Shown piece after piece: positions 44,097-61,851 of a stretch of 64,000 nt of DNA. Location: NCBI RefSeq assembly GCF_030440425.1, contig NZ_CP098023.1, forward strand, positions 3,036,501-3,100,500, written 5' to 3'. Every line of letters begins with the position of its first letter. Positions within the stretch are counted from its first letter, which is position 1. The notes under the pieces were generated by a model that did not search any database, had not been told where the DNA came from, and was given only the letters and a program-made list of their open reading frames with translations. The DNA comes from Microbulbifer sp. MI-G (lineage in GTDB: Bacteria > Pseudomonadota > Gammaproteobacteria > Pseudomonadales > Cellvibrionaceae). The translations under genes were made by a program, and so were the position numbers.

Positions 44097-45338
44097 TCAG
44101 CCCGTGTGCATGTTTCTGGCTTCGACCAGCGTATCGCTAGGCCCACTGTTCACAGTCTGCAGCAGGCGTTCGTTAACCCCTTCGACGGTCTTATTGATTC
44201 CCTTGAAAAAGCTACCATCCAGTTGGGTTTGCTCATATAAATAGGTCCGAAAGCGCAGAAACAGCTTATGGTCAACCACAGCAGGGGCCTTCCAAAAGCT
44301 GGAGAGTGAACCCTGGTGCGTTAGACCCCGCAAATCGTAGAACGCGCGCCCCAGCACCTTGGTTGAAACCCTGTGCAGAAGCGCTGAAATGCCCACGGTG
44401 CTGTTGATGGTCACAACCCCCCTGGCATGATCCAGCAAGGTGGGCAGATGCAGATCATGGCAGTAAATCACCCTGCCGGAGAGTCCATAGCGCACCTCCA
44501 AGGCATCAACAAGCTTTTGGTAGTGACAAAAGCCCCGATCCATTGGGTGGTGTTTGATCACAAGTACTGTATTTGCCGGGGCATAACGCGCAAAGGATTT
44601 CAATACTGCGTCAATTGCGTTTTCCATAGAGAGCAGGTCCGAGTGCTCACGAAGTTGGAAATCATCTCGGGTTTGTAACGGAAACAGGAAAAACTTACGA
44701 CTGAAATTCGTCGTCAATTTTGGGGTTAAGGAACGCTGGGTAACCCTGTAGAGACCCTTTCGGAAAAAGCTTCTGATCCAACAAGCCCCCTCCGCTTTCC
44801 AGTCTCGGCTTCGATGATGCTGATAGTGCGGATACCTGGACCTGGCAAAACGCATCGCCAGATAATAGCCCATAGCAAAACGGGCCCGTTGAAAGAAAGT
44901 CCGACCTACAGGCGCCCCGGGTTGACGCCCGCGGCTCTGGTAACGCCCAATAGCCTCATGAGACCAGTCTGTATGGGAAAAAGCATTCACACCACCCCAC
45001 TCAAAAGTTACAAAATCCGGGCGTAAATAACCCTCTTCAAAAACACCAAAGGGTATACCCAGAGACTCGCAGACTGCTCGGGCCCTGGTATGCAAAGGCC
45101 GGCAGTCACCATAGACAAATACGGCTTCTGCATCATGCTCCAGCAAATAGCGACGAAAAAAGGATGGCCAGTCATGTTCACAACCGCTGAAATCGGCCTG
45201 GAAATCGGCCCAGCCAAAAAAACGGTCACCGCCATTAAAATTGATCTTGTGGGTGATCACCCCTTGCTTTGACAGTTTTTTTGCCAACTCGGCAAAGAAT
45301 AGGCCATGAGGCCCCTGTAAAAATACCGCCACAGGCAT
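44097..45338 (-). CDS. kpsS: Capsule polysaccharide Kdo transferase, KpsS-like
   Basis: KpsS adds the first Kdo to the lipid phosphatidylglycerol anchor of group 2-type capsules. It has 413 residues of the Capsule_synth family. Signatures are VYGDCRPLHTRA, FGVFEEGYLRPDFVTFEWGG and, near the C-terminus, TINSTVGISALLHRVSTKVLG. It works with KpsC, encoded 1.6 kb upstream. The two are separated by a dioxygenase gene, an unusual arrangement. It is the first gene met where the moderately high-GC core gives way to AT-richer DNA. Confidence 0.85.
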   Translation of the reverse strand: MPVAVFLQGPHGLFFAELAKKLSKQGVITHKINFNGGDRFFGWADFQADFSGCEHDWPSFFRRYLLEHDAEAVFVYGDCRPLHTRARAVCESLGIPFGVFEEGYLRPDFVTFEWGGVNAFSHTDWSHEAIGRYQSRGRQPGAPVGRTFFQRARFAMGYYLAMRFARSRYPHYQHHRSRDWKAEGACWIRSFFRKGLYRVTQRSLTPKLTTNFSRKFFLFPLQTRDDFQLREHSDLLSMENAIDAVLKSFARYAPANTVLVIKHHPMDRGFCHYQKLVDALEVRYGLSGRVIYCHDLHLPTLLDHARGVVTINSTVGISALLHRVSTKVLGRAFYDLRGLTHQGSLSSFWKAPAVVDHKLFLRFRTYLYEQTQLDGSFFKGINKTVEGVNERLLQTVNSGPSDTLVEARNMHTG

Positions 45339-45737: not shown

Positions 45738-46787
45738 TTAAACTGAGTCTTGGATCCGTGTAAATCTTCCAAAGAAAGTATTTAGCTCTCCACTGGCAAT
45801 TTTGCGCTTGTCCAATCTTTGTAAAACCTTTCCCCAACCCCATTCAAACAACCTTCCCGTGTATTTTGGACAAGGGGTAAACAGTGGGTTGAAGGGGTTA
45901 TCCCGTGCCTGCATCCAGATTGTCATTCGGTTGGATTTCGCACTGGCCTCACCACGGCGATGAAACCCGAACACATTGGCTATTACAAGCGTGTTGGGAG
46001 GCACACACAGTTTCTCAACCGACAGCCCCATCTTAGCAAGTGCAAAATCACTGACCCGAAATGACCCATCCCAATATCTTCCCTTGTCCCGAAGTGCGCC
46101 TTTCTGACATGCCTTCAGGCTCTGACTGTATTCCCACTTTAAACGCCCCCAGGAAAGGCGATGAGAGCCTGGTACATAAATATAGGGCCCGTTTTGGTCG
46201 TCGGTGCCGTCAATATACAACCAGGCTTTCACACAGGGGTGGAATGTATCCGCATGCATATCCCGCTGTGGATCAGGGCGGGGTGTTACATTGGCATGAT
46301 TGCATAGATTTTCTATGAAAAAAAAGGGGGGACGATTTTTAGAGGAGCTGTAACGCATCAACCTATCAAGATAGGGATTGTCCGCTAGCTGACAAAATTC
46401 CGGTGCCTGTCGTCTGCTGGCGTGATCCATAAAAACACGCTGCGTCAAAGTCGTCCCCTCAACAACTTCGCGTATCATCCCCTTATAGCTATTGAGTTCA
46501 ACAGAGAGGTTAGTGAACTGCGCCTCTGGTAAAAAATTCTTTTTCAGGATAAATCCTTTTTCAAGAAAGTCTTTTCTATCTTTTTCAGATACCAATGGGG
46601 ACAAGAGTAAAAGGCGCAACCTGAACAGCAAATGGGCCACTACGACCCTGATTACATGCAATCCACAACGATTTAACCAATAGCTCCCTATAAGCGGGTT
46701 GTTCCTAAAGCTTTTACCCCAACTAAAAATTTCAAAAACCCATTTTGGCAATTTCCAGACCAAATCTATGAAATCACGAATTCGCAT
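45738..46787 (-). CDS. Phytanoyl-CoA dioxygenase-like 2-oxoglutarate/Fe(II) oxygenase
   Basis: This 349-residue protein has a PhyH-type double-stranded beta-helix. The iron ligands are H178 and D180 (DMHADTFH) and H276 (NVFGFHRRGE), with R287 nine residues later (KSNRMTIW) to hold 2-oxoglutarate. YVPGSHRLSW is a typical motif in this fold. The first 60 residues are hydrophobic and basic, which may anchor the protein at the membrane. Family members hydroxylate lipids, sugars or amino acids. Its place between kpsS and kpsC suggests it modifies the glycan or lipid anchor, but this is inference. Confidence 0.8.
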   Translation of the reverse strand: MRIRDFIDLVWKLPKWVFEIFSWGKSFRNNPLIGSYWLNRCGLHVIRVVVAHLLFRLRLLLLSPLVSEKDRKDFLEKGFILKKNFLPEAQFTNLSVELNSYKGMIREVVEGTTLTQRVFMDHASRRQAPEFCQLADNPYLDRLMRYSSSKNRPPFFFIENLCNHANVTPRPDPQRDMHADTFHPCVKAWLYIDGTDDQNGPYIYVPGSHRLSWGRLKWEYSQSLKACQKGALRDKGRYWDGSFRVSDFALAKMGLSVEKLCVPPNTLVIANVFGFHRRGEASAKSNRMTIWMQARDNPFNPLFTPCPKYTGRLFEWGWGKVLQRLDKRKIASGELNTFFGRFTRIQDSV

Positions 46788-46928: not shown

Positions 46929-48980
46929 CTATTTGAACAGATATTTATTCCGGTACCAACGATAGATTTTCTGAATAACCCCGGCTGGACCTATTGTATT
47001 CCTGTTATTATCCAGCAGCTCTACCGCTGTCTCAACATCAATATATTCTCCCGAAGAGGGATCTATATAAAATGGATAGAGAATCAGGGTTCCGGCGATT
47101 AGTTCATCCAAAGTCAGCCTTCGACTTCTTCTGGCTTTGAAGGCTTCAAGATCAATGCCAGCCAAAACATCGCCAGTGAGGAGTTTATCGTCTGTTAGGC
47201 CCCATCCTGCATAAAAAGGCAATCCATAGGTTACTACTTTCAGGCCACGCAATAATGCCTCAAACCCTGTCAAAGAACTCAATGTATGAACTTCATTTAC
47301 CTGCTTGAGCAATACAGACATTTCGATATTTTGAATCAAGTGATCATAAACTGCCTCTGAGTCAGGCTGCAGTGCTCCCAAACGAGCTCCTACTTCAACA
47401 TCTGGATGGGGCTTGTAGAGTATATAGGCATCGGGGTTTTCAGACCTGACCTTTTCCAACAGAGATTGATTGCTTTTTATTCTCGGTGATCCAAAAGCAA
47501 TCGATGCATCACTCTCAACCTGCCCTGGCACCAGTATGATTTTTCGATCTCGGGGAAAACTAAAAGAGTCCAACCCACCAGAGCTTCCAACATTATATTT
47601 ACTGATACCCTTTTCAAGAATCATTTTTTGTAATTTTCTAGCACGATTAATTAGCGTAAGAGAGAATTCTGTTTTATTCAACAATACCTCTAAATCACTG
47701 GAACAGTGTGCATTAAAGTATATCCCTCTTGCATCAAATACCAATGATATAGGAGCAACCAGATCTGCACCCAAACCAACTGAGCGCAGAAATCCATCTT
47801 CAGCCTGCCAGAGGTTTAATTCGGACTTCTCACAGCTGTTGCGTAATTCTTCCGTAACACTGCTGGCCCATACAAGCGCATTCACGCCCTCAGTGGCCTT
47901 GTGTATTTTCTGAAAATCACTTATAAACTGTATATTTTTACGCCGCTCCAAAAAATCAGCAATAAACCGCCGCTTCCAGGATGAGAAACCTACCCCTACC
48001 CAACGTCCATTCAAATGGGAGAACATGCGTTTTTGCTCCGCAATTAAACGGACAGTATCCTCAAATTTGCAAGGGCGGCCAGTATAAGGGTTGATATAGC
48101 GGCAATAGAGATAATAGGCTGCAAAAAAAATCTGAGCCAGGGAACGAGAGACATTTCGACGGTTCAATTTTTGACGGTCTTTGGTTAATCCCCATCCCGC
48201 ATAAAAGGGAATACCAAAGCAGTGCACCTCTTTGCCGGCAATCAATGCATCAAAGCCCAACTGGCTAGTGACGACATAGACCTTTTCTATATCATCAAAT
48301 AATGCCCAGGGGGAAATATCTTCTGCAATTACGCGACAACCCTGCTTGTGAGCTTGGCTGAGCAAGTATCCCTTTTTCTTGCCAACAATTACATCCGGGT
48401 GTATCTTTACAAGAATTTCTGCATCGGGATTTTCCCGTATTGCGGAATCCAACATTGTATAAAACTGTTGCCTGGAGCCATAGCCAGCCTGTACAGAGAT
48501 ATCATTATATGTTTGGTCCACCACCAGCACGCGCCTTGGCTTGCCGAGCCAGCTTAAGGGCAAATCTGTAGAGTTATTATACTTTGACAGGCGATAATGC
48601 TTGAGAAGCTCTATTCCCCTATTCGCTCGCTTAATATTCTCTTGGCTAAAATCCGCCTCTTTGATAAGGTTTTCCAGGTCACTGACTTGCGTGGCATCAT
48701 AATAAATTCCCGTATTATCCACTACAAGGCTATGGGGCAGTGAACCTTCAACACCAAGCCCCAAAGAACGTAAAAATCCATCCTCAATACAGATATAAGG
48801 CAAATGATATTTATTGGCGATTTTTCGCGCTTTAATTGCAGTATCCTTGAGCCCCCAACCAACCATATGGGTTATTTCATTACCAGGGTAAAAGGGGATA
48901 TAGCGGCACTGTGCCCTGAGAAACTGATCCAGATTTTTCAAACGACGCAAGCCGAGGGAGCAATAACCAACTACAGGCAC
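46929..48980 (-). CDS. kpsC: Capsule polysaccharide beta-Kdo transferase, KpsC-like
   Basis: KpsC extends the Kdo linker that attaches capsules to phosphatidylglycerol. It has 683 residues and two tandem halves, each a beta-Kdo transferase domain. The repeated signature is visible in IEDGFLRSLGLG and AEDGFLRSVGLGAD, and in SLVVDNTGIYYDA and SLVFDARGIYFNA. The halves cover about 1-330 and 330-683. Together with KpsS it indicates a Kdo-linked, ABC-exported polysaccharide, though the exporter (kpsM/T) is not in the window. Its end overlaps the next gene by 10 bases. Confidence 0.9.
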   Translation of the reverse strand: MPVVGYCSLGLRRLKNLDQFLRAQCRYIPFYPGNEITHMVGWGLKDTAIKARKIANKYHLPYICIEDGFLRSLGLGVEGSLPHSLVVDNTGIYYDATQVSDLENLIKEADFSQENIKRANRGIELLKHYRLSKYNNSTDLPLSWLGKPRRVLVVDQTYNDISVQAGYGSRQQFYTMLDSAIRENPDAEILVKIHPDVIVGKKKGYLLSQAHKQGCRVIAEDISPWALFDDIEKVYVVTSQLGFDALIAGKEVHCFGIPFYAGWGLTKDRQKLNRRNVSRSLAQIFFAAYYLYCRYINPYTGRPCKFEDTVRLIAEQKRMFSHLNGRWVGVGFSSWKRRFIADFLERRKNIQFISDFQKIHKATEGVNALVWASSVTEELRNSCEKSELNLWQAEDGFLRSVGLGADLVAPISLVFDARGIYFNAHCSSDLEVLLNKTEFSLTLINRARKLQKMILEKGISKYNVGSSGGLDSFSFPRDRKIILVPGQVESDASIAFGSPRIKSNQSLLEKVRSENPDAYILYKPHPDVEVGARLGALQPDSEAVYDHLIQNIEMSVLLKQVNEVHTLSSLTGFEALLRGLKVVTYGLPFYAGWGLTDDKLLTGDVLAGIDLEAFKARRSRRLTLDELIAGTLILYPFYIDPSSGEYIDVETAVELLDNNRNTIGPAGVIQKIYRWYRNKYLFK

Positions 48981-54153: not shown

Positions 54154-54714
54154 TCAACAGGCAGTTCTGTGTTCATGCCTGTAATATGAAGCATTAATCT
54201 TAGAACAACCGATAAAATTCTTTATTTTTTCACCATCATCTTTTTCTATATTAAATAAAAGAAAATTTTTACGGCCATAAAAATATTGCAACACATTAGA
54301 ATGATGTCTATGCCATTCGTACTTCCAGCGTTGGACCACTTCTTCACGATCACAGGAGTAGATTTCCTTAAATCGTCGCAGGTAACTCCCTAGACCATGA
54401 TTAAGCCGGCTATTTATCCATTTTTCTATAGGGCGTGTATTCAATATAAAAAGAGAGCCCGGATACTGCCGATCCAATTCTTGATAGTATTTTTCAAAAG
54501 CATATAGGCATCGGGTTGAAACCAGCTCCATATCACTAAAGAAATTATATTCTTCATATCCACTCAACAGTGGCCGCCCATGTAGACAATTAGCCTCAAG
54601 CTGCAGAGCCAAGTTTCCATAGTCCCAATGAATGGCTTTATAACCATTGCGCAAAAAAAAATGGTTCAGACTTGTTGTACCGCACTTGTTAAAGCCGATC
54701 TGAAATACTCTCAT
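54154..54714 (-). CDS. Sulfotransferase-like protein
   Basis: This 186-residue protein starts with the PAPS-binding loop FQIGFNKCGTTSLNHFF (residues 4-20) and has FILNTRPIEKWINSR, the 3'-phosphate site, in the middle. Both are marks of the sulfotransferase fold. At 186 residues it is short for the family (usually 250-330). Sulfation of a surface glycan would be its natural role here. The base composition is AT-rich. Confidence 0.75.
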   Translation of the reverse strand: MRVFQIGFNKCGTTSLNHFFLRNGYKAIHWDYGNLALQLEANCLHGRPLLSGYEEYNFFSDMELVSTRCLYAFEKYYQELDRQYPGSLFILNTRPIEKWINSRLNHGLGSYLRRFKEIYSCDREEVVQRWKYEWHRHHSNVLQYFYGRKNFLLFNIEKDDGEKIKNFIGCSKINASYYRHEHRTAC

Positions 54715-54878: not shown

Positions 54879-55943
54879 TCAGTTAACCAACGATGTCGCA
54901 ATTTCCACCTGCTTATCGCTATCGGCACTCCGGTAACCATTTGGATTACCGCTCTGCCAGCGCCAAGTGTCGGCCATCATTTCCTCCAGCCCCAGGTTCA
55001 CCGCCCACCCTAGCACTCTCGCCGCCCTGGAAGCATCAGCCCAAAAGGCTGGTAGGTCCCCGGTACGACGCGGCGCCATCTGATAGGGTACAGACACACC
55101 TGAAGCTTGCTCAAAAGCTCGAATTATTTCCAGCACCGAAGTGCCCTGGCCAGTCCCAAGATTAAATGCTTCTGCACCTGTGTGATCCGCCAGCCATTCC
55201 AGAGCACGGACGTGTCCCAGAGCCAAGTCCACCACATGCAAGTAGTCCCGCAGGCAGGTACCGTCCGGTGTAGGGTAGTCGTCACCAAATACTGAGAGCT
55301 CCTCACGCTTGCCCACCGCCACCTGAGCGATATACGGCAGCAGATTATTGGGAATTCCCTGGGGGTCCTCTCCAATCAGTCCTGAGGGGTGAGCTCCAAC
55401 CGGGTTAAAGTAGCGTAGCAACGCGATAGAAAGCTCCGGGTCGGCAGCGGCAGCGTCGCGCAGAACCTGCTCTACGATCCATTTACTGGTACTGTATGGG
55501 TTGCTGGTATTCCCAGTTTGCAAAGTTTCCACATAGGGCACCGGTGCCTCACTACCATAGACAGTGGCCGAAGAACTGAACACCAACCGCTTCACACCGA
55601 ACGCACGCATAGCCTCCAGCAGCACGAGACTGCCGGAAACATTATTCTGGTAGTATTCGAGCGGCTTCTGGGAGGATTCACCCACCGCCTTCAGGCCGGC
55701 AAAGTGAATCACCGCACAAATAGCGTTCTCAGTAAATATCCTATCCAGTAGCATTCTGTCCAGAATATCCCCTCGATAGAAACGCACCGACTTACCAGTG
55801 ATTTCCTCCACCCGTTGCAATGCTACCTCGGAGCTATTACACAGGCTGTCGATAACCACCGCCTCAAACCCTGCCTCCTGCAGAGCCACCAGGGTGTGCG
55901 ACCCTATATAGCCAGCGCCACCCGTAACAAGAACCTGCTGCAT
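54879..55943 (-). CDS. galE: UDP-glucose 4-epimerase
   Basis: GalE interconverts UDP-glucose and UDP-galactose. It has 354 residues of the SDR extended family. The NAD loop is VTGGAGYIGSHT, the catalytic serine is in FSSSATVYG, and the YxxxK pair is in NPYSTSKWIVE. RYFNPVGAHPSGLIGEDP is a GalE hallmark. It would supply UDP-galactose for the neighbouring glycosyltransferases. It is noticeably more GC-rich than both neighbours, as if it belonged to an older core segment. Confidence 0.94.
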   Translation of the reverse strand: MQQVLVTGGAGYIGSHTLVALQEAGFEAVVIDSLCNSSEVALQRVEEITGKSVRFYRGDILDRMLLDRIFTENAICAVIHFAGLKAVGESSQKPLEYYQNNVSGSLVLLEAMRAFGVKRLVFSSSATVYGSEAPVPYVETLQTGNTSNPYSTSKWIVEQVLRDAAAADPELSIALLRYFNPVGAHPSGLIGEDPQGIPNNLLPYIAQVAVGKREELSVFGDDYPTPDGTCLRDYLHVVDLALGHVRALEWLADHTGAEAFNLGTGQGTSVLEIIRAFEQASGVSVPYQMAPRRTGDLPAFWADASRAARVLGWAVNLGLEEMMADTWRWQSGNPNGYRSADSDKQVEIATSLVN

Positions 55944-56134: not shown

Positions 56135-56527
56135 CTAGTTTGAACTAATGATTTCAATAATTTCAGTGGTTGAAACCGAAGGTGTTCTTGGTAAATAACA
56201 AACTTCACAAAGGGACTGTAAATGATCAAATTTCCCGACCCAATCATCTCCCATCACCAAGACATCAGCACTGTAAAGAGAAATGTAATGAGCCTTTTTT
56301 TCAAGAGTTTCCTCTTCAAAGCAAAAATTAACATATCTCAGGCTATTGATTATTTTCATTCTGTCATGCTGGTTATATATAGGATTTCGTCCTTTTTTTG
56401 CCATATTAAGCGCGTCAGTAGAGACACCTACTATCAACCTGTCGCCGAGCGCTGCGGCTCTCTGAAGTAAATTTGCATGCCCCACATGAAAAACATCAAA
56501 TGTCCCGAAAGTTATTACTGTTCTCAT
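56135..56527 (-). CDS. Glycerol-3-phosphate cytidylyltransferase-like protein (TagD type)
   Basis: This 130-residue protein belongs to the cytidylyltransferase family. HVGH at 14-17 is the first nucleotidyl signature and RTPSVSTTEII (about 113-123) is the second. This pattern, at this length, matches TagD and other glycerol-3-phosphate or small-alcohol phosphate cytidylyltransferases. The likely product is CDP-glycerol or a similar CDP-alcohol. It lies 30 bases after the large LicD-GDPD gene, so the two are probably co-transcribed and functionally linked. Confidence 0.85.
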   Translation of the reverse strand: MRTVITFGTFDVFHVGHANLLQRAAALGDRLIVGVSTDALNMAKKGRNPIYNQHDRMKIINSLRYVNFCFEEETLEKKAHYISLYSADVLVMGDDWVGKFDHLQSLCEVCYLPRTPSVSTTEIIEIISSN

Positions 56528-56556: not shown

Positions 56557-58860
56557 TTAATTCTCACCTCTACCAATCAGCTCAACAAAGGCCTCCGAGC
56601 TACACTCTAGTGTAGTAACATACTCGATTCCCATTGCAACCATCTTTTTTAGCGACGCATTGTAACAATCAACACCTCTAACAGTCTGATTCGGACTCAA
56701 ACCACTAGAGTGTGGAGGCGTCCAGTTCTGACCGTGAATAAAGCACATGGACTTCAAATCGCGTCTTTTTATCTGGTACATACTTTCACTTATATCCTCA
56801 TCATAATGTGGATACATAAACATAATGCCATCTACACCATACATCCTCACCTGATCAAGAACTAGTGGGTCAATCTCCCAAGCTTGAGTGTAGAATTTCC
56901 AAAACAATAAACTTTCTGGAAAATGCCGAATCAATGGTTCAACTTGTTTTTCGTTGTAAACACAAAAAATAAGCATCGAAGGATCAAATCCTGCATTATC
57001 AATACAATGCTTGAGCTTCGAATAGTCCTGAGGCTTGAATCGGGCATCCAGTAGTACCTGCTTACCACTGAGATCTTGCAATGCTCGAGACAACGATGCC
57101 ATAAATACATCTTTGCCCTGAAAGTCCCCCAATCTAAAATTGACTACTTGCTCCAATGAAGATTTAGACAAATAAATTTTTTCTCCTGCGTTATTCTCAA
57201 CCAAATCATCATGCGCCAGTACTATTTCCCCATCCCCAGTAACCCTAAGATCAAGCTCTATAACATCAAATCCATAATCAATAGCTTGGAGCAACATGGG
57301 AATTGAATTGCTTGGTGGCCTTTTATTCTTAAGGACACACTGAGACCATGCAACTAGACGTGTACGCGTATACCCGTATCTATATTTTCTTTGCTTTTCC
57401 CTTTGATCATATAAATCCGATAGGTTTTTATCATTAAAGTAAACTCGCCTCTCTATATGCCAAGACCATTCATGATAAGGATTACTGCGACTCCAGCCCT
57501 CACCATATCTATCAAAAAGAAACTCATCCACTTTTGCAGGGCAAGGGTAACGTCTACCATGTAATTTTATTTCTGAAGGCGGCGTCAAAATTTTACAATC
57601 AATATCACGGTACACTAAATTTTCCATGACAACACTTGCCTTACCACTAGCAATAGAGGCCCATGCAAAAAATATGTCTATACCAACCGAAGCTGTCGAT
57701 GAATTAACAGTAATATGAGGAAATGACGATCGAGAACCCACTGTAAACCCAAGCCTCCTCAAATACTCTATAAGAGAATTCCTTTCTCGTTCGCAAGCGC
57801 ACTCCTCTACAATGTCTGGATAGTATAAAATAATATCAATATCATCATCAAACGGAAGAAAAGCTTCATTTCTAAATGCCCCAAGCAATGTACCATATGC
57901 AACCATCGGAATAGCATTTACATCATTCAAAGCACTCATCAGCTTATCAAGATAATCCAAATGAGAATTGCGCTTCGACACAAGAGTATCGTAGTGCACT
58001 CTATGCTTAGCAATTACAACCTTCTTATCTTCACCATATTTTCTGCTAATCTTTCTAGTTGCATATTCCCTAAGACAATCTATCGACACATCATCGCACA
58101 AGATTGACCCAAACTCTTTTAAGTTACGAGTATTAAAATAATTTTTTGACTGCAACTCTCTATCGATAACTTTCGTTAAGTAATATGCACCCAAGCTATC
58201 CAATCTTGGCTTTGCCCCCCCCACAGGAAAAAGAGCACAAACTAATTCATCACTAACCTCTACACCAGATTCAATTAGTTCGTAAAGCTTCAATCTGAGA
58301 TACTTAGAAGACTGAAAGACATTTTCAGGAATACAAGCTTCACCATTATATTTTGATAAAATCCCATATAATTCATCTTGTAAATTCTGCTTTAACAGAT
58401 CAGGGACATTTTTATATGAAAACCCCAACTCTCCATCATTCATTCCTTCCAGGGCAATGAATCTGGATCTTAAACCACAGTCACCTTGCCTGTTAAAAAC
58501 CCTAATAACACTAACATTTCTTTTTTCTTTAAACTTAATCTTCAATCTTGGCCTAAGTTCACACTTACTATGCAATAACTTCCTTTCATTCAAACGCGCC
58601 TTCACGCAGTTAGATCCATCCACATCAAAATAGTAATTCGAGCTTAACTTCGCACTCTCAATCAGTCCTAAAAAAACTAAATCTTTTCCGTCATCCATTA
58701 TAATTTCTATTGCTTGAATGTTTAGAAACTCCCGAAAATCAGAATCAATGTACACCTCAAGCTCAGAAAGATATGTATTGCATTGTATTTCTAATGGCAC
58801 CCCACTTAAACCCCAAGCACCTAGACTTTCAAGCAACCCAATATTTATTTTTTTATACAT
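56557..58860 (-). CDS. Three-part protein: unknown N-terminal region, LicD domain, GDPD-like domain
   Basis: This 767-residue protein joins three parts. Residues 1-150 are beta-rich with no recognised family; residues 150-290 are mostly helical. Residues 313-465 form a LicD domain with AYGTLLGAFRNEAFLPFDDDIDI (split here: GTLLGAFRNE and LPFDDDIDI); D338, D339, D340 and D342 are the metal-binding set. Residues 500-760 form a glycerophosphodiester phosphodiesterase-like barrel: IELDLRVTGDGEIVLAHDD keeps E535, D537 and H550. The normal HRG loop at its start is replaced by AWSQ (504-507) and the ENT motif by SNS, so hydrolysis is doubtful. LicD proteins transfer phosphoalcohols from CDP donors. 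With the TagD-like gene next door it may add glycerol phosphate to a glycan. Confidence 0.8.
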   Translation of the reverse strand: MYKKINIGLLESLGAWGLSGVPLEIQCNTYLSELEVYIDSDFREFLNIQAIEIIMDDGKDLVFLGLIESAKLSSNYYFDVDGSNCVKARLNERKLLHSKCELRPRLKIKFKEKRNVSVIRVFNRQGDCGLRSRFIALEGMNDGELGFSYKNVPDLLKQNLQDELYGILSKYNGEACIPENVFQSSKYLRLKLYELIESGVEVSDELVCALFPVGGAKPRLDSLGAYYLTKVIDRELQSKNYFNTRNLKEFGSILCDDVSIDCLREYATRKISRKYGEDKKVVIAKHRVHYDTLVSKRNSHLDYLDKLMSALNDVNAIPMVAYGTLLGAFRNEAFLPFDDDIDIILYYPDIVEECACERERNSLIEYLRRLGFTVGSRSSFPHITVNSSTASVGIDIFFAWASIASGKASVVMENLVYRDIDCKILTPPSEIKLHGRRYPCPAKVDEFLFDRYGEGWSRSNPYHEWSWHIERRVYFNDKNLSDLYDQREKQRKYRYGYTRTRLVAWSQCVLKNKRPPSNSIPMLLQAIDYGFDVIELDLRVTGDGEIVLAHDDLVENNAGEKIYLSKSSLEQVVNFRLGDFQGKDVFMASLSRALQDLSGKQVLLDARFKPQDYSKLKHCIDNAGFDPSMLIFCVYNEKQVEPLIRHFPESLLFWKFYTQAWEIDPLVLDQVRMYGVDGIMFMYPHYDEDISESMYQIKRRDLKSMCFIHGQNWTPPHSSGLSPNQTVRGVDCYNASLKKMVAMGIEYVTTLECSSEAFVELIGRGEN

Positions 58861-58980
58861 TTAAATTAGACCAACCATGATAACTGAAAAACTCTAACCA
58901 CTTCATTTTCAATGAACGCTCAATGCTTACCAAAATCATCTACAAAAATCTGAGACATCTTATTCAAATTGGTTGGAGAC

Positions 58981-59618
58981 CTAGACCGTGTAATATTCTT
59001 TTTTTACAACTTTCGCTGGAACACCCACCGCAATTGAACACTGGGGGATATTTGATGTTAGAATTGCACCAGTACCAATTACAGAACCCGATTTCACCTC
59101 AACATCTGGCATTAGTGTTGATTTCTTCCCAGCCATACATGATCACCTAGTGTAGTCACCCTTAACATCTTATTAAGAATCTCCCCACTCTCTAGGCTTA
59201 CCAACGCATGCTGATCTGCTGATTGAATCAATACCTCACCAGAAAACATGCAATCTGATCCATTTTTTACTTTAGAATTGTCACAAACAATCCGGGTTCC
59301 ATTTGAGCTTGTGCCCGCACCTATCTCTATCTCACTGCTTCTCCAAAATCTTATCTCATATGAATCAATGCAACCCCTAGAAAAAATAACCCTAGAATCG
59401 TTATTACCAACAAAAATAGAAAAAACACCCGCCAGATAGGAAATATCAAAGTGAAATCTATCTTTACAGGCCATCTCACCTTGCTGCATCACAGATATTT
59501 TTAGCTTACCGGCAGCGATAGCCTTTTGAGATTCATCACTTATACTGGCCGTACAACTTATACCAAACACTCCCTTAACCTCTACTTCATGAGGAAGATT
59601 AAAAATAGAATAATTCAA
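58981..59618 (-). pseudogene. Hexapeptide-repeat acetyltransferase, frameshifted near its C-terminus
   Basis: The frame 59112-59618 encodes 168 residues ending DHVWLGRNQH. The next frame, ending at 58981, continues with KKSTLMPDVEVKSGSVIGTG and SIAVGVPAKVV, exactly what follows in left-handed beta-helix acetyltransferases (WbbJ/maltose acetyltransferase type). One missing base in the GGGAAG at 59125-59130 separates them. Restored, it would be about 212 residues and O-acetylate a sugar. The first 70 residues are beta-rich. It is either broken or affected by a sequencing error. Confidence 0.75.
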
Positions 59619-59672: not shown

Positions 59673-60620
59673 TCACTTTATTTCTCGGGAAACAAAGAAC
59701 TCAATAAGCTGATCAAACCCAACCAATGGATCCCACTCAAATTTTTCAACATTCCCAGCATTACTAGTAGATGAAATAAAATCACTCATATCTAAGCCCA
59801 CACAAAACTCTTCTGAAAATCTTTTGTTAGAGCCTGAGTAATAATCCATCACTATTCGCTCAAAATGCTTTGGAAGAGAAAACCCTATATCTTGATTATT
59901 AAATGCTATAAATTCCTTCATAAGGTCTGGCGCCTTAATGCCTTGCCGATTCAAAGCCAAATTCAATAAAACCTCTCTTCTTTTCAGAGAGTAATTAACT
60001 CCTCCCGATCCTGGAGTTGCATAGCTTGATAGATCCCCATACACACCACAAGTCTCAAGGAAAATATATTCAATATTTTGGTTGCACTTTCGAACATGAT
60101 CAAAATTAATAATCGATATTTCAACACCTAGGTCTGCCCATTCTTGACAGTTGACATAGTAGTTTAATAACTTGTCATTTTTTGACCAAACGAGATTTGA
60201 AGTTCGTCCCAGAGCTTTTACATCCTGATTAAACCCCGAGGCCAGTAATTTGTCTTGCCTGCGAACAGTATAGATTACCTCCACCTTATCAAAATAAGTC
60301 AAGAAATACTTCAAAACTGAGCTTTTTTCAGAAAGGGTAAAATATTCAGAAGAGCAGATAACTACAGAGTCTGCACCAAAGGTTTTTAGCTTCTCAGATA
60401 TTTCAGATAATTTTTTTTCTTGCAACAGCCTATTAATATCTTCCCGTTTTTTCAAACGTGTATCACTGATGTGCTCACAGGCAATAATATGTGGGTATAG
60501 TCCGGACAATACATCAACTCTATGTTCCACTTTCAACCTTTCAGCATTCAGATTCATATAGGCCTGAATAAAACTCGTGCCTGTTTTTGGCATTCCGACA
60601 TGCAGATACAATTTAGCCAT
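59673..60620 (-). CDS. Sulfotransferase-like protein
   Basis: From ATG 60620 it has 315 residues and begins AKLYLHVGMPKTGTSFIQAY, in which GMPKTGTS is the PAPS-binding loop. YTVRRQDKLLASGFNQDV near residue 130 fits the 3'-phosphate site. The frame extends 11 codons upstream to 60653 without similarity. Its start overlaps the end of the glycosyltransferase gene by 8 bases, so the pair is translationally coupled. It is distinct in sequence from the shorter sulfotransferase at 54154-54714. Confidence 0.8.
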   Translation of the reverse strand: MAKLYLHVGMPKTGTSFIQAYMNLNAERLKVEHRVDVLSGLYPHIIACEHISDTRLKKREDINRLLQEKKLSEISEKLKTFGADSVVICSSEYFTLSEKSSVLKYFLTYFDKVEVIYTVRRQDKLLASGFNQDVKALGRTSNLVWSKNDKLLNYYVNCQEWADLGVEISIINFDHVRKCNQNIEYIFLETCGVYGDLSSYATPGSGGVNYSLKRREVLLNLALNRQGIKAPDLMKEFIAFNNQDIGFSLPKHFERIVMDYYSGSNKRFSEEFCVGLDMSDFISSTSNAGNVEKFEWDPLVGFDQLIEFFVSREIK

Positions 60621-61851
60621 GATAAATACCCCTATGCTTATCTGCGCACTCAAAAATAGTCAGCGGATTTGGAACTTCTTTGACGACCAAGTCCCAATTG
60701 CCTTCTCCCCCATAAGCTTTCAATATCGCCTGCTTTAGTGAATTGCTACTCCCGTTGCGGAAGCTGTAGCCATTGACATCATCGGTGATTTTCTCAGCTA
60801 TTCCGCCAATATCACTGCCAATCAGCGGTCGACCGTGGTTAAATGCCTCCTGAATGACCATCGGCGAGTTTTCCCACCACACTGAGGGAATAATCACCCA
60901 ATCAGCCTGCTCCATCAATCGACCTATTTCGTGGGATTCATAAGAACCGTGCAGGGTCACCAAGTCACCGAGATCCTCTAACAACCCAAAGATCTTCTCC
61001 TGGAACTCCTCTGTTTGCCCCTGCAAATTGGCGCCGTGAATATCCAGGTACACCTTCTCTTGAACATCTTCTGGCAACAGTTTGAAAGCCTCCAGCAAGA
61101 CATCTACGCCTTTGAACGGGTTGATCTGGCCGAAGAAGGCAAATCGACCACGTACCTCGCCCTCGGCCAATGGTCGCGGTGCCGGGGTTTCGATCTCAGG
61201 CTGGCCATTTTCGATCATAACCATTTTGTCCTCAGGAATTCCCCAGGCCTTGTAACGCTCAATCAGGAAATAGCTGGGTGATACAAACCTATCCACCAAT
61301 TTGAAAATGGACTTGATGTATTTCTCGCGCAAAAAGAAGTCTGCCGCAGAGCGCTCCGGGAAACAGCGTGCGCAATCTGTTGGTGAGGATTTATAGCAAA
61401 GCTTCATCTGCTCACCAGGCTTAACCATTTGTCCATGATTGGCACAGATGGCCAAATATTCGTGCAGGGTGAGTACTATACGAGTATCGGGCAGTGTATT
61501 CTTGACCTCGCGAATCAATTCCAGGCCCATATGAATATAGTGATGGAAATGCACCACCGTCGGTCTGTAGCGCTGCAGTAACGCACGAAACTCCTGCCAT
61601 ACGTGCTTTTTGTAGCCGGACTGAAACAGGAAGAAGTCCGACATATGGGTGTGGAAAAAGATTTCCCTGTCCGAATTAATCGTGGAAAAAGCGGAACCAC
61701 CATGGGAAGGCTGGTCGGTACGCGCTAGAAAGATGGTATCCAACCCCTGTCGTTCATATTCCTTGAATAGGTTATAGGCAGCCATTTCAGCACCGCCTTT
61801 GCTGTGATCCGGATGACCGTGGGAAACAATCAGTATTCTTTGCTCTGTCAT
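60613..61851 (-). CDS. Glycosyltransferase family 4 protein
   Basis: This GT-B glycosyltransferase has 412 residues. The N-terminal half starts RILIVSHGHPDHSKGGAEMAAYNLF. The C-terminal nucleotide-sugar half has FAFFGQINPFKGVDVLLEAFKLL and VIIPSVWWENSPMVIQEAFNHGRPLIGS, the EX7E-type motif. A cysteine cluster (CYKSSPTDCARCFPE, around 170-185) suggests a metal site or disulfide. It lies between a GT2 gene and a sulfotransferase, and base composition returns toward that of the core. Confidence 0.9.
   Translation of the reverse strand: MTEQRILIVSHGHPDHSKGGAEMAAYNLFKEYERQGLDTIFLARTDQPSHGGSAFSTINSDREIFFHTHMSDFFLFQSGYKKHVWQEFRALLQRYRPTVVHFHHYIHMGLELIREVKNTLPDTRIVLTLHEYLAICANHGQMVKPGEQMKLCYKSSPTDCARCFPERSAADFFLREKYIKSIFKLVDRFVSPSYFLIERYKAWGIPEDKMVMIENGQPEIETPAPRPLAEGEVRGRFAFFGQINPFKGVDVLLEAFKLLPEDVQEKVYLDIHGANLQGQTEEFQEKIFGLLEDLGDLVTLHGSYESHEIGRLMEQADWVIIPSVWWENSPMVIQEAFNHGRPLIGSDIGGIAEKITDDVNGYSFRNGSSNSLKQAILKAYGGEGNWDLVVKEVPNPLTIFECADKHRGIYHG

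Follow-up and report, generated by a model that had tools for sequence, protein, structure and literature searches.

In the staphylococcal protein LpgD (8GHH), an enzyme of the GDPD/GlpQ type (PF03009), two histidines have distinct tasks. According to the portions of the LpgD report considered here (PMC10404611), His51 has the task of activating the substrate's 2-OH in the step that generates a cyclic phosphate. It is not absolutely required: the H51A protein keeps significant activity, yields a larger relative amount of cyclic product, and is unimpaired in hydrolysing the cyclic intermediate. His93 and the metal site, on the other hand, matter in both steps. A GDPD-derived protein can also make phosphodiesters rather than cleave them. 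AvrBs2, which is grouped with agrocinopine synthase, is a phosphodiester synthetase that uses UDP-galactose and keeps H274, E304, D306, H319 and D596 together with an extra motif of its own; a motif with R544 and D547 is specific to the clade (sections of PMC12807533).

CpsC of A. pleuropneumoniae, a LicD protein whose N terminus is a TPR domain and whose partner is the PF04464 protein CpsA, polymerises glycerol-3-phosphate on a Kps-type capsule lipid (parts of PMC11666461); the polymerisation of polyol phosphate by a LicD protein has been reported only recently, and the enzymology of phosphate-containing capsules is still little known. In H. influenzae a GDPD, GlpQ, and the LicD of LicABCD work in one pathway, but as separate proteins; the contribution of GlpQ is choline, obtained from host lipid products (excerpts of PMC10434233). 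A precedent for joining a transferase to a phosphate-removing domain within a single capsule enzyme is the Hib polymerase Bcs3, which combines a ribitol-phosphate transferase with a phosphatase; its parts, the HAD phosphatase CrpP and the GT-B transferase CroT, have folds unrelated to those considered below (passages of PMC10299916).

The sequence analysed here, called the window, is a stretch of 64,000 nucleotides from Microbulbifer sp. MI-G. Its minus strand contains a reading frame of 767 codons, beginning with ATG, that encodes, from the N to the C terminus, an F-type-lectin-like region, a spacer, a LicD domain and a GDPD-like domain. The features of this protein are as follows (all on the minus strand).

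56557..58860, minus strand: fusion protein of 767 aa, lectin-like, spacer, LicD and GDPD-like (reading frame, Pfam)
58411..58860, minus strand: F-type-lectin-like region, residues 1-150 (profile matches to 3cqo and 1k12; limits set by the authors)
58006..58410, minus strand: spacer, residues 151-285 (no family match in this region; limits set by the authors)
57436..58005, minus strand: LicD domain, residues 286-475 (PF04991; 6kaj)
57835..57849, minus strand: DDDID, residues 338-342, the LicD metal motif
56560..57369, minus strand: GDPD-like domain, residues 498-767 (PF03009; hhalign)
57340..57351, minus strand: AWSQ, residues 504-507, replacing AHRG
57250..57258, minus strand: E535-x-D537, the metal-site motif
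57211..57213, minus strand: H550, the second catalytic His of GDPDs
57040..57048, minus strand: D605-x-R607, probably at the place of the canonical E-x-K
56896..56898, minus strand: K655, invariant and not seen in ordinary GDPDs
56734..56736, minus strand: H709, invariant, a candidate replacement His

Each domain assignment is based on profile similarity. The LicD part scores 41.5 bits against PF04991 (cut-off 22.6; residues 319-349) and resembles fukutin-related protein (6kaj, E=3.8e-5), with which, as with CpsC, it shares the LicD motif and a likely CDP donor. The GDPD part scores 41.6 bits against PF03009 (cut-off 23.6). Pfam's match covers only residues 514-590, but the similarity extends across the sequence of the putative TIM barrel to the end of the protein: the profile matches GDPD structures (3mz2, 1.1e-13; 3i10, 2.8e-13; 2pz0, 1.4e-12), and hhalign pairs it with ordinary GDPDs at 99.3% over 208 columns, or 99.55% over 241 columns when forced into global mode. 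(The first of these comparisons used 21 rows and the second 31, nine of 40 having been excluded because they were at least 300 aa long.) A beta-rich N-terminal region had been noted earlier, and this description can now be refined: with a 10-row profile the region matches the F-type lectins 3cqo (E=2.4e-8 for the whole chain, 0.00094 for the best single stretch) and 1k12 (E=5.3e-6). Residues 1-150 are thus F-type-lectin-like in terms of sequence similarity, and sugar binding is putative. The reading frame, the Pfam matches and the residues found in place rule out a chance motif or a wrong reading frame. No signal sequence was seen by eye, and the protein is probably cytoplasmic.

Relatives were gathered with three queries, namely the whole protein, its GDPD-like domain and the corresponding domain of relative P0019. 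Because the whole-protein search scored 8000 candidates, the size of the family is a lower bound, and further members are possible. At least 32 relatives with the GDPD-like C-terminal domain were kept, giving a collected set of 33 with the window protein; P0020-P0029 (other LicD or unrelated proteins) and P0035 (internally deleted) were left out of the counts. The group is well set off from ordinary GDPDs, since in the domain search a gap separates the last relative (P0035, E=3.1e-47) from the first ordinary GDPD (5e-5), and a tree divides the domain from four ordinary GDPDs with support of 100/99. The tree is rough, with long branches, open forks and an unsettled bootstrap, and is used only for this split and for label changes, in which the forms lacking LicD require at least two changes.

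Both domains are present in 26 of the 33 collected proteins. The remaining seven have the GDPD-like domain without LicD, either with a lectin-like part (P0015-P0017) or almost alone (P0030-P0033); P0034, conversely, has LicD and no lectin-like part. In all 26 LicD-bearing members the metal motif reads DDDxD, in agreement with the earlier note, which had described the DDDID set as intact. (P0017, with an apparent motif DNAQD, is a misalignment in a protein without LicD, and was left out of this count.)

The GDPD-like site differs from that of ordinary enzymes in a consistent way. At position 505, where 31 of 31 ordinary GDPDs have the first catalytic His within HRG, the family has Trp in 30 proteins and Phe in 3, and MAFFT and hhalign concur in the placement of this column. 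The change of the HRG loop to AWSQ, pointed out previously together with SNS at 517-519 in place of ENT, is therefore real and not a chance feature of one protein. The other canonical elements are kept: E535, D537 and H550, all present in the window protein as had been stated, occur in 32, 31 and 32 of the 33 family members (the complete ExD in 31), and each of these positions is uniform, as Glu, Asp and His, in the 31 ordinary GDPDs. These 31 sequences are not independent, however, as they comprise 21 loci from few genomes, mostly of one genus, and 10 protein matches, several of them nearly alike. In place of the canonical E-x-K the family probably has D605-x-R607 (each in 32/33); hhalign pairs D605 with the canonical Glu and R607 with the canonical Lys, whereas the MAFFT alignment is shifted by two residues. 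Finally, K655, E688 and H709 are found in 33 of 33 family proteins, and ordinary GDPDs mostly have Leu, Thr or Val at position 655 (n=31).

The claim that the domain lacks the usual catalytic histidine thus holds for the first His, and its loss is a family trait, but it was overstated. The missing residue corresponds to LpgD His51, the one that activates the 2-OH, and H550 corresponds to His93, so that of the two catalytic histidines a single one is absent and, in LpgD, replacement of that one leaves significant activity. As judged from these residues, what the family has lost is the assistance to cyclisation, while the central acid/base and the metal-binding motif persist. This is most simply read as a phosphodiester-handling enzyme whose substrate or nucleophile would need no activated neighbouring hydroxyl.

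Could another histidine have taken over the missing role? Within the domain, only columns 550 and 709 have His in at least 25 of the 33 proteins; column 508 has it in nine. One His is gone and another, invariant one has been gained, so H709 may be a replacement. If so, the domain might be an ordinary GDPD hydrolase in which H709 stands in for the first His and the cyclic-phosphate mechanism is retained. The MAFFT alignment would suit this idea, as it sets column 709 on the canonical Val/Ile of the WTVN strand (Val in 22 and Ile in 9 of the 31 ordinary GDPDs), two residues past the Trp, Tyr or Phe; 13 of the 31 carry a His at some point between columns 703 and 714, though never at 709. In contrast, hhalign leaves H709 in an insertion before W713 and pairs WTVN with W713-T714. 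On judgement, the MAFFT placement is favoured because it needs no gap after the helix and because P0018 and P0034 have no W713. Nevertheless, K655, E688 and the aromatic residue at 505 are invariant too, so that several residues have changed rather than one, and the genome already encodes three other GDPDs, all ordinary. A relocated histidine within an otherwise ordinary hydrolase is consequently quite improbable.

The variant site appears to be maintained by selection. Among 14 full-length members (91 pairs; 14 of the 20 rows of the A1 alignment, after exclusion of three without LicD and three fragments), mean pairwise identity is 0.515 in the GDPD-like domain and 0.490 in LicD, and drops to 0.352 in the spacer and 0.344 in the lectin-like part. 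In comparison with the Microbulbifer agarilyticus gene, pN is 0.163 in the GDPD-like domain, 0.231 in LicD and 0.300 in the N-terminal 285 residues; outside LicD (dN/dS 0.21) the synonymous sites have reached saturation. The share of invariant columns is larger in LicD (29/190) than in the GDPD-like domain (30/270). Because the domain is as conserved as LicD, it looks rebuilt rather than decayed, and with its altered motif invariant in the 33 collected proteins, a decayed GDPD was rejected as the general case. Four members with canonical losses may be exceptions: P0012 (E535Q, D537G), P0018 (D537N), P0034 (D605G) and P0053 (H550Q, D551S, R607Q). Such losses are thus seen in 4 of the 26 LicD-bearing members and in none of the seven without LicD.

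These four proteins, along with the loss of HRG throughout the family, are what might be expected if the domain were non-catalytic and bound phosphoglycerol ends or phosphodiester chains, holding the acceptor for LicD; the aromatic residue at 505, K655, E688 and H709 are kept in 33 of 33, P0053 included. A complete ExD in 31 and H550 in 32 of 33 proteins nonetheless exceed what a binding site needs, and in P0030-P0033 the domain occurs nearly alone. For the family as a whole, a purely binding role is therefore regarded as unlikely. P0053, which is from a metagenome, has lost H550, D551, R607, C633 and Y635 together and has kept W505, K655, E688 and H709; this protein is perhaps a binding-only descendant and, if so, a natural test case.

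Around the fusion gene the following genes, all on the minus strand, were recognised.

44097..45338, minus strand: KpsS-like capsule protein (PF05159, 270.3 bits; NF050054, 350.2 bits, below the cut-off of 600)
45738-46787, minus strand: PhyH-type dioxygenase, between the two PF05159 genes
46929..48980, minus strand: KpsC-like capsule protein (PF05159, 308.1 bits in three stretches; no NCBIfam match)
54154-54714, minus strand: sulfotransferase-like gene (above the Pfam cut-off)
54879..55943, minus strand: GalE, UDP-glucose 4-epimerase (TIGR01179, 450.8 bits, cut-off 262.3)
56135..56527, minus strand: TagD-like cytidylyltransferase, 130 aa (1coz, E=5.2e-34; TIGR01518, 127.9 bits, below the cut-off of 165.4)
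59673-60653, minus strand: sulfotransferase-like gene (weak match only)
60613..61851, minus strand: glycosyltransferase, family 4 type

The TagD-like gene lies directly downstream of the fusion gene and is followed by galE, an order shared with M. agarilyticus (a synteny of two genomes). The locus also contains glycosyltransferases and the sulfotransferase-like genes, from which sulfation of the capsule may be supposed. Its setting is thus Kps-type, like that of CpsC, but the LicD protein here carries lectin-like and GDPD-like parts instead of a TPR domain, and a search of the window's genome for a PF04464 (CpsA-type) partner gave 0 matches. A second LicD was likewise not found in this genome. 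GC content is 0.56-0.60 over 3-45 kb and falls to 0.37-0.48 over 45-63 kb, with the minimum at 57-60 kb, which fits a horizontally acquired capsule island. At about 58950-59618 on the minus strand, a hexapeptide-acyltransferase-like frame (weak NF007499 match) stops early at 59112 and has a similar continuation in another frame; it looks like a broken gene.

Taken with this neighbourhood, the leading reading of the fusion protein is a capsule-synthesis enzyme with two active sites, although the chance of this is put slightly below even. The cytidylyltransferase would make CDP-glycerol or a similar CDP-polyol, and LicD would move the phospho-polyol onto a glycan to which the lectin-like part is bound. 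As an active metal enzyme, the GDPD-like domain would then cleave a phosphodiester of the LicD product or of the chain, in a kind of editing or trimming. In this cleavage H550 would serve as general acid/base, 2-OH cyclisation, the step served by the lost His in ordinary GDPDs, would not occur, and activation of the nucleophile would fall to the metal or to H709. The invariance of the rebuilt site, its near-complete ExD and H550, and the identity and pN of the domain argue for such an enzyme, as do the lesser role of the first His in LpgD relative to His93 and the metal, the TagD-like gene downstream both here and in M. agarilyticus, the capsule genes, the separated pieces in Alteromonas sediminis (below) and the precedent of Bcs3. 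Weighing against it are the canonical losses in four of the fusions, the lead of LicD in invariant-column share, the ambiguous place of H709, the sub-cut-off TIGR01518 score and a synteny limited to two genomes. Since the proposal is built on the absence of the first His and the presence of H550, the disagreement of the aligners over H709 leaves the standing of the several readings unchanged.

The same residues can be viewed from the side of synthesis. The domain might be a transferase or synthetase that takes a phospho-alcohol or a sugar phosphate off a CDP- or UDP-linked donor, or off the LicD product, and places it on another hydroxyl, creating a second kind of phosphodiester. The residue lost is precisely the one that serves intramolecular cyclisation, the domain is fused to a transferase within a biosynthetic locus, and AvrBs2 provides an example of sugar phosphodiester chemistry by a GDPD-derived protein. 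AvrBs2, however, requires its canonical residues, including H274 (taken as the first His), according to the sections cited above, and this residue is absent in the family here. The curated AvrBs2 model gives only 9.2 bits as against 1000, so that membership of the AvrBs2 clade is not supported. A transferase role is therefore rated as somewhat unlikely. If it were correct, the family would give a GDPD-based path to phosphodiester synthesis in addition to those of AvrBs2 and agrocinopine synthase. A bolder form, itself considered unlikely, makes the AW[SG]Q domain a new catalytic branch within the GDPD fold: having lost the His that activates the 2-OH and acquired the invariant residues H709 and K655, it would not cleave but would link a phospho-alcohol or a sugar phosphate to another hydroxyl, and one polypeptide would then form two different phosphodiester links in a marine capsule.

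Of the changed role proposed in the earlier note, then, what stands is that an altered site is under selection, given the family-wide motif and conservation at the level of LicD; binding, trimming and transfer are not distinguishable by sequence. Whichever applies, the family presents a naturally selected GDPD site that has parted with one catalytic histidine and retained the other, so that their roles in ordinary GDPDs become directly testable. It also adds an architecture to those known for LicD, and the fusion suggests an unusual two-step handling of phosphate links in surface sugars.

The fusion had been called unusual, and it is indeed rare, yet with 26 collected examples it is a family and not a single case. 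A search with the A1 alignment found the full fusion in one of 390 genomes sampled from the order (three more matched LicD only) and in two of the 48 genomes from the genus (six more LicD only); the GDPD-like domain turned up in one of 398 genomes sampled from the phylum and in one of 395 sampled from the A. sediminis family. A widespread fusion is thus not seen in any of these samples. Three loci from the A. sediminis family (L052-L054) were rejected as relatives, being ordinary AHRG/AHRA GDPDs. A scan of genome contigs gave no match with a single-protein query and two loci with an alignment query. No relatives were found in viral contigs, nor any relatives of the window protein in plasmids, where P0046 as query gave two Shinella records and no others, aligned to its LicD part (residues 305-459). 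No report of a LicD-GDPD fusion was found in the open-licence literature; the family is apparently an uncharacterised one, in which a selected GDPD variant is joined to LicD in a capsule locus.

Named sources of relatives are M. agarilyticus (63% identity), A. sediminis and Litoreibacter halocynthiae, the last of which is an alphaproteobacterium. In A. sediminis a LicD-less form adjoins a pyruvyltransferase gene. On another contig, a LicD gene with a weak, sub-cut-off lectin-like match is accompanied by one other gene, by a TagD-like gene and by glycosyltransferases of the same two types. As judged by these matches, the pieces of the fusion are present, apart, within one genome. LicD also has other partners: at two loci in genomes of the same order as the window (L006 and L007), LicD is followed in the same frame by a methyltransferase-like stretch, which by eye is another LicD fusion.
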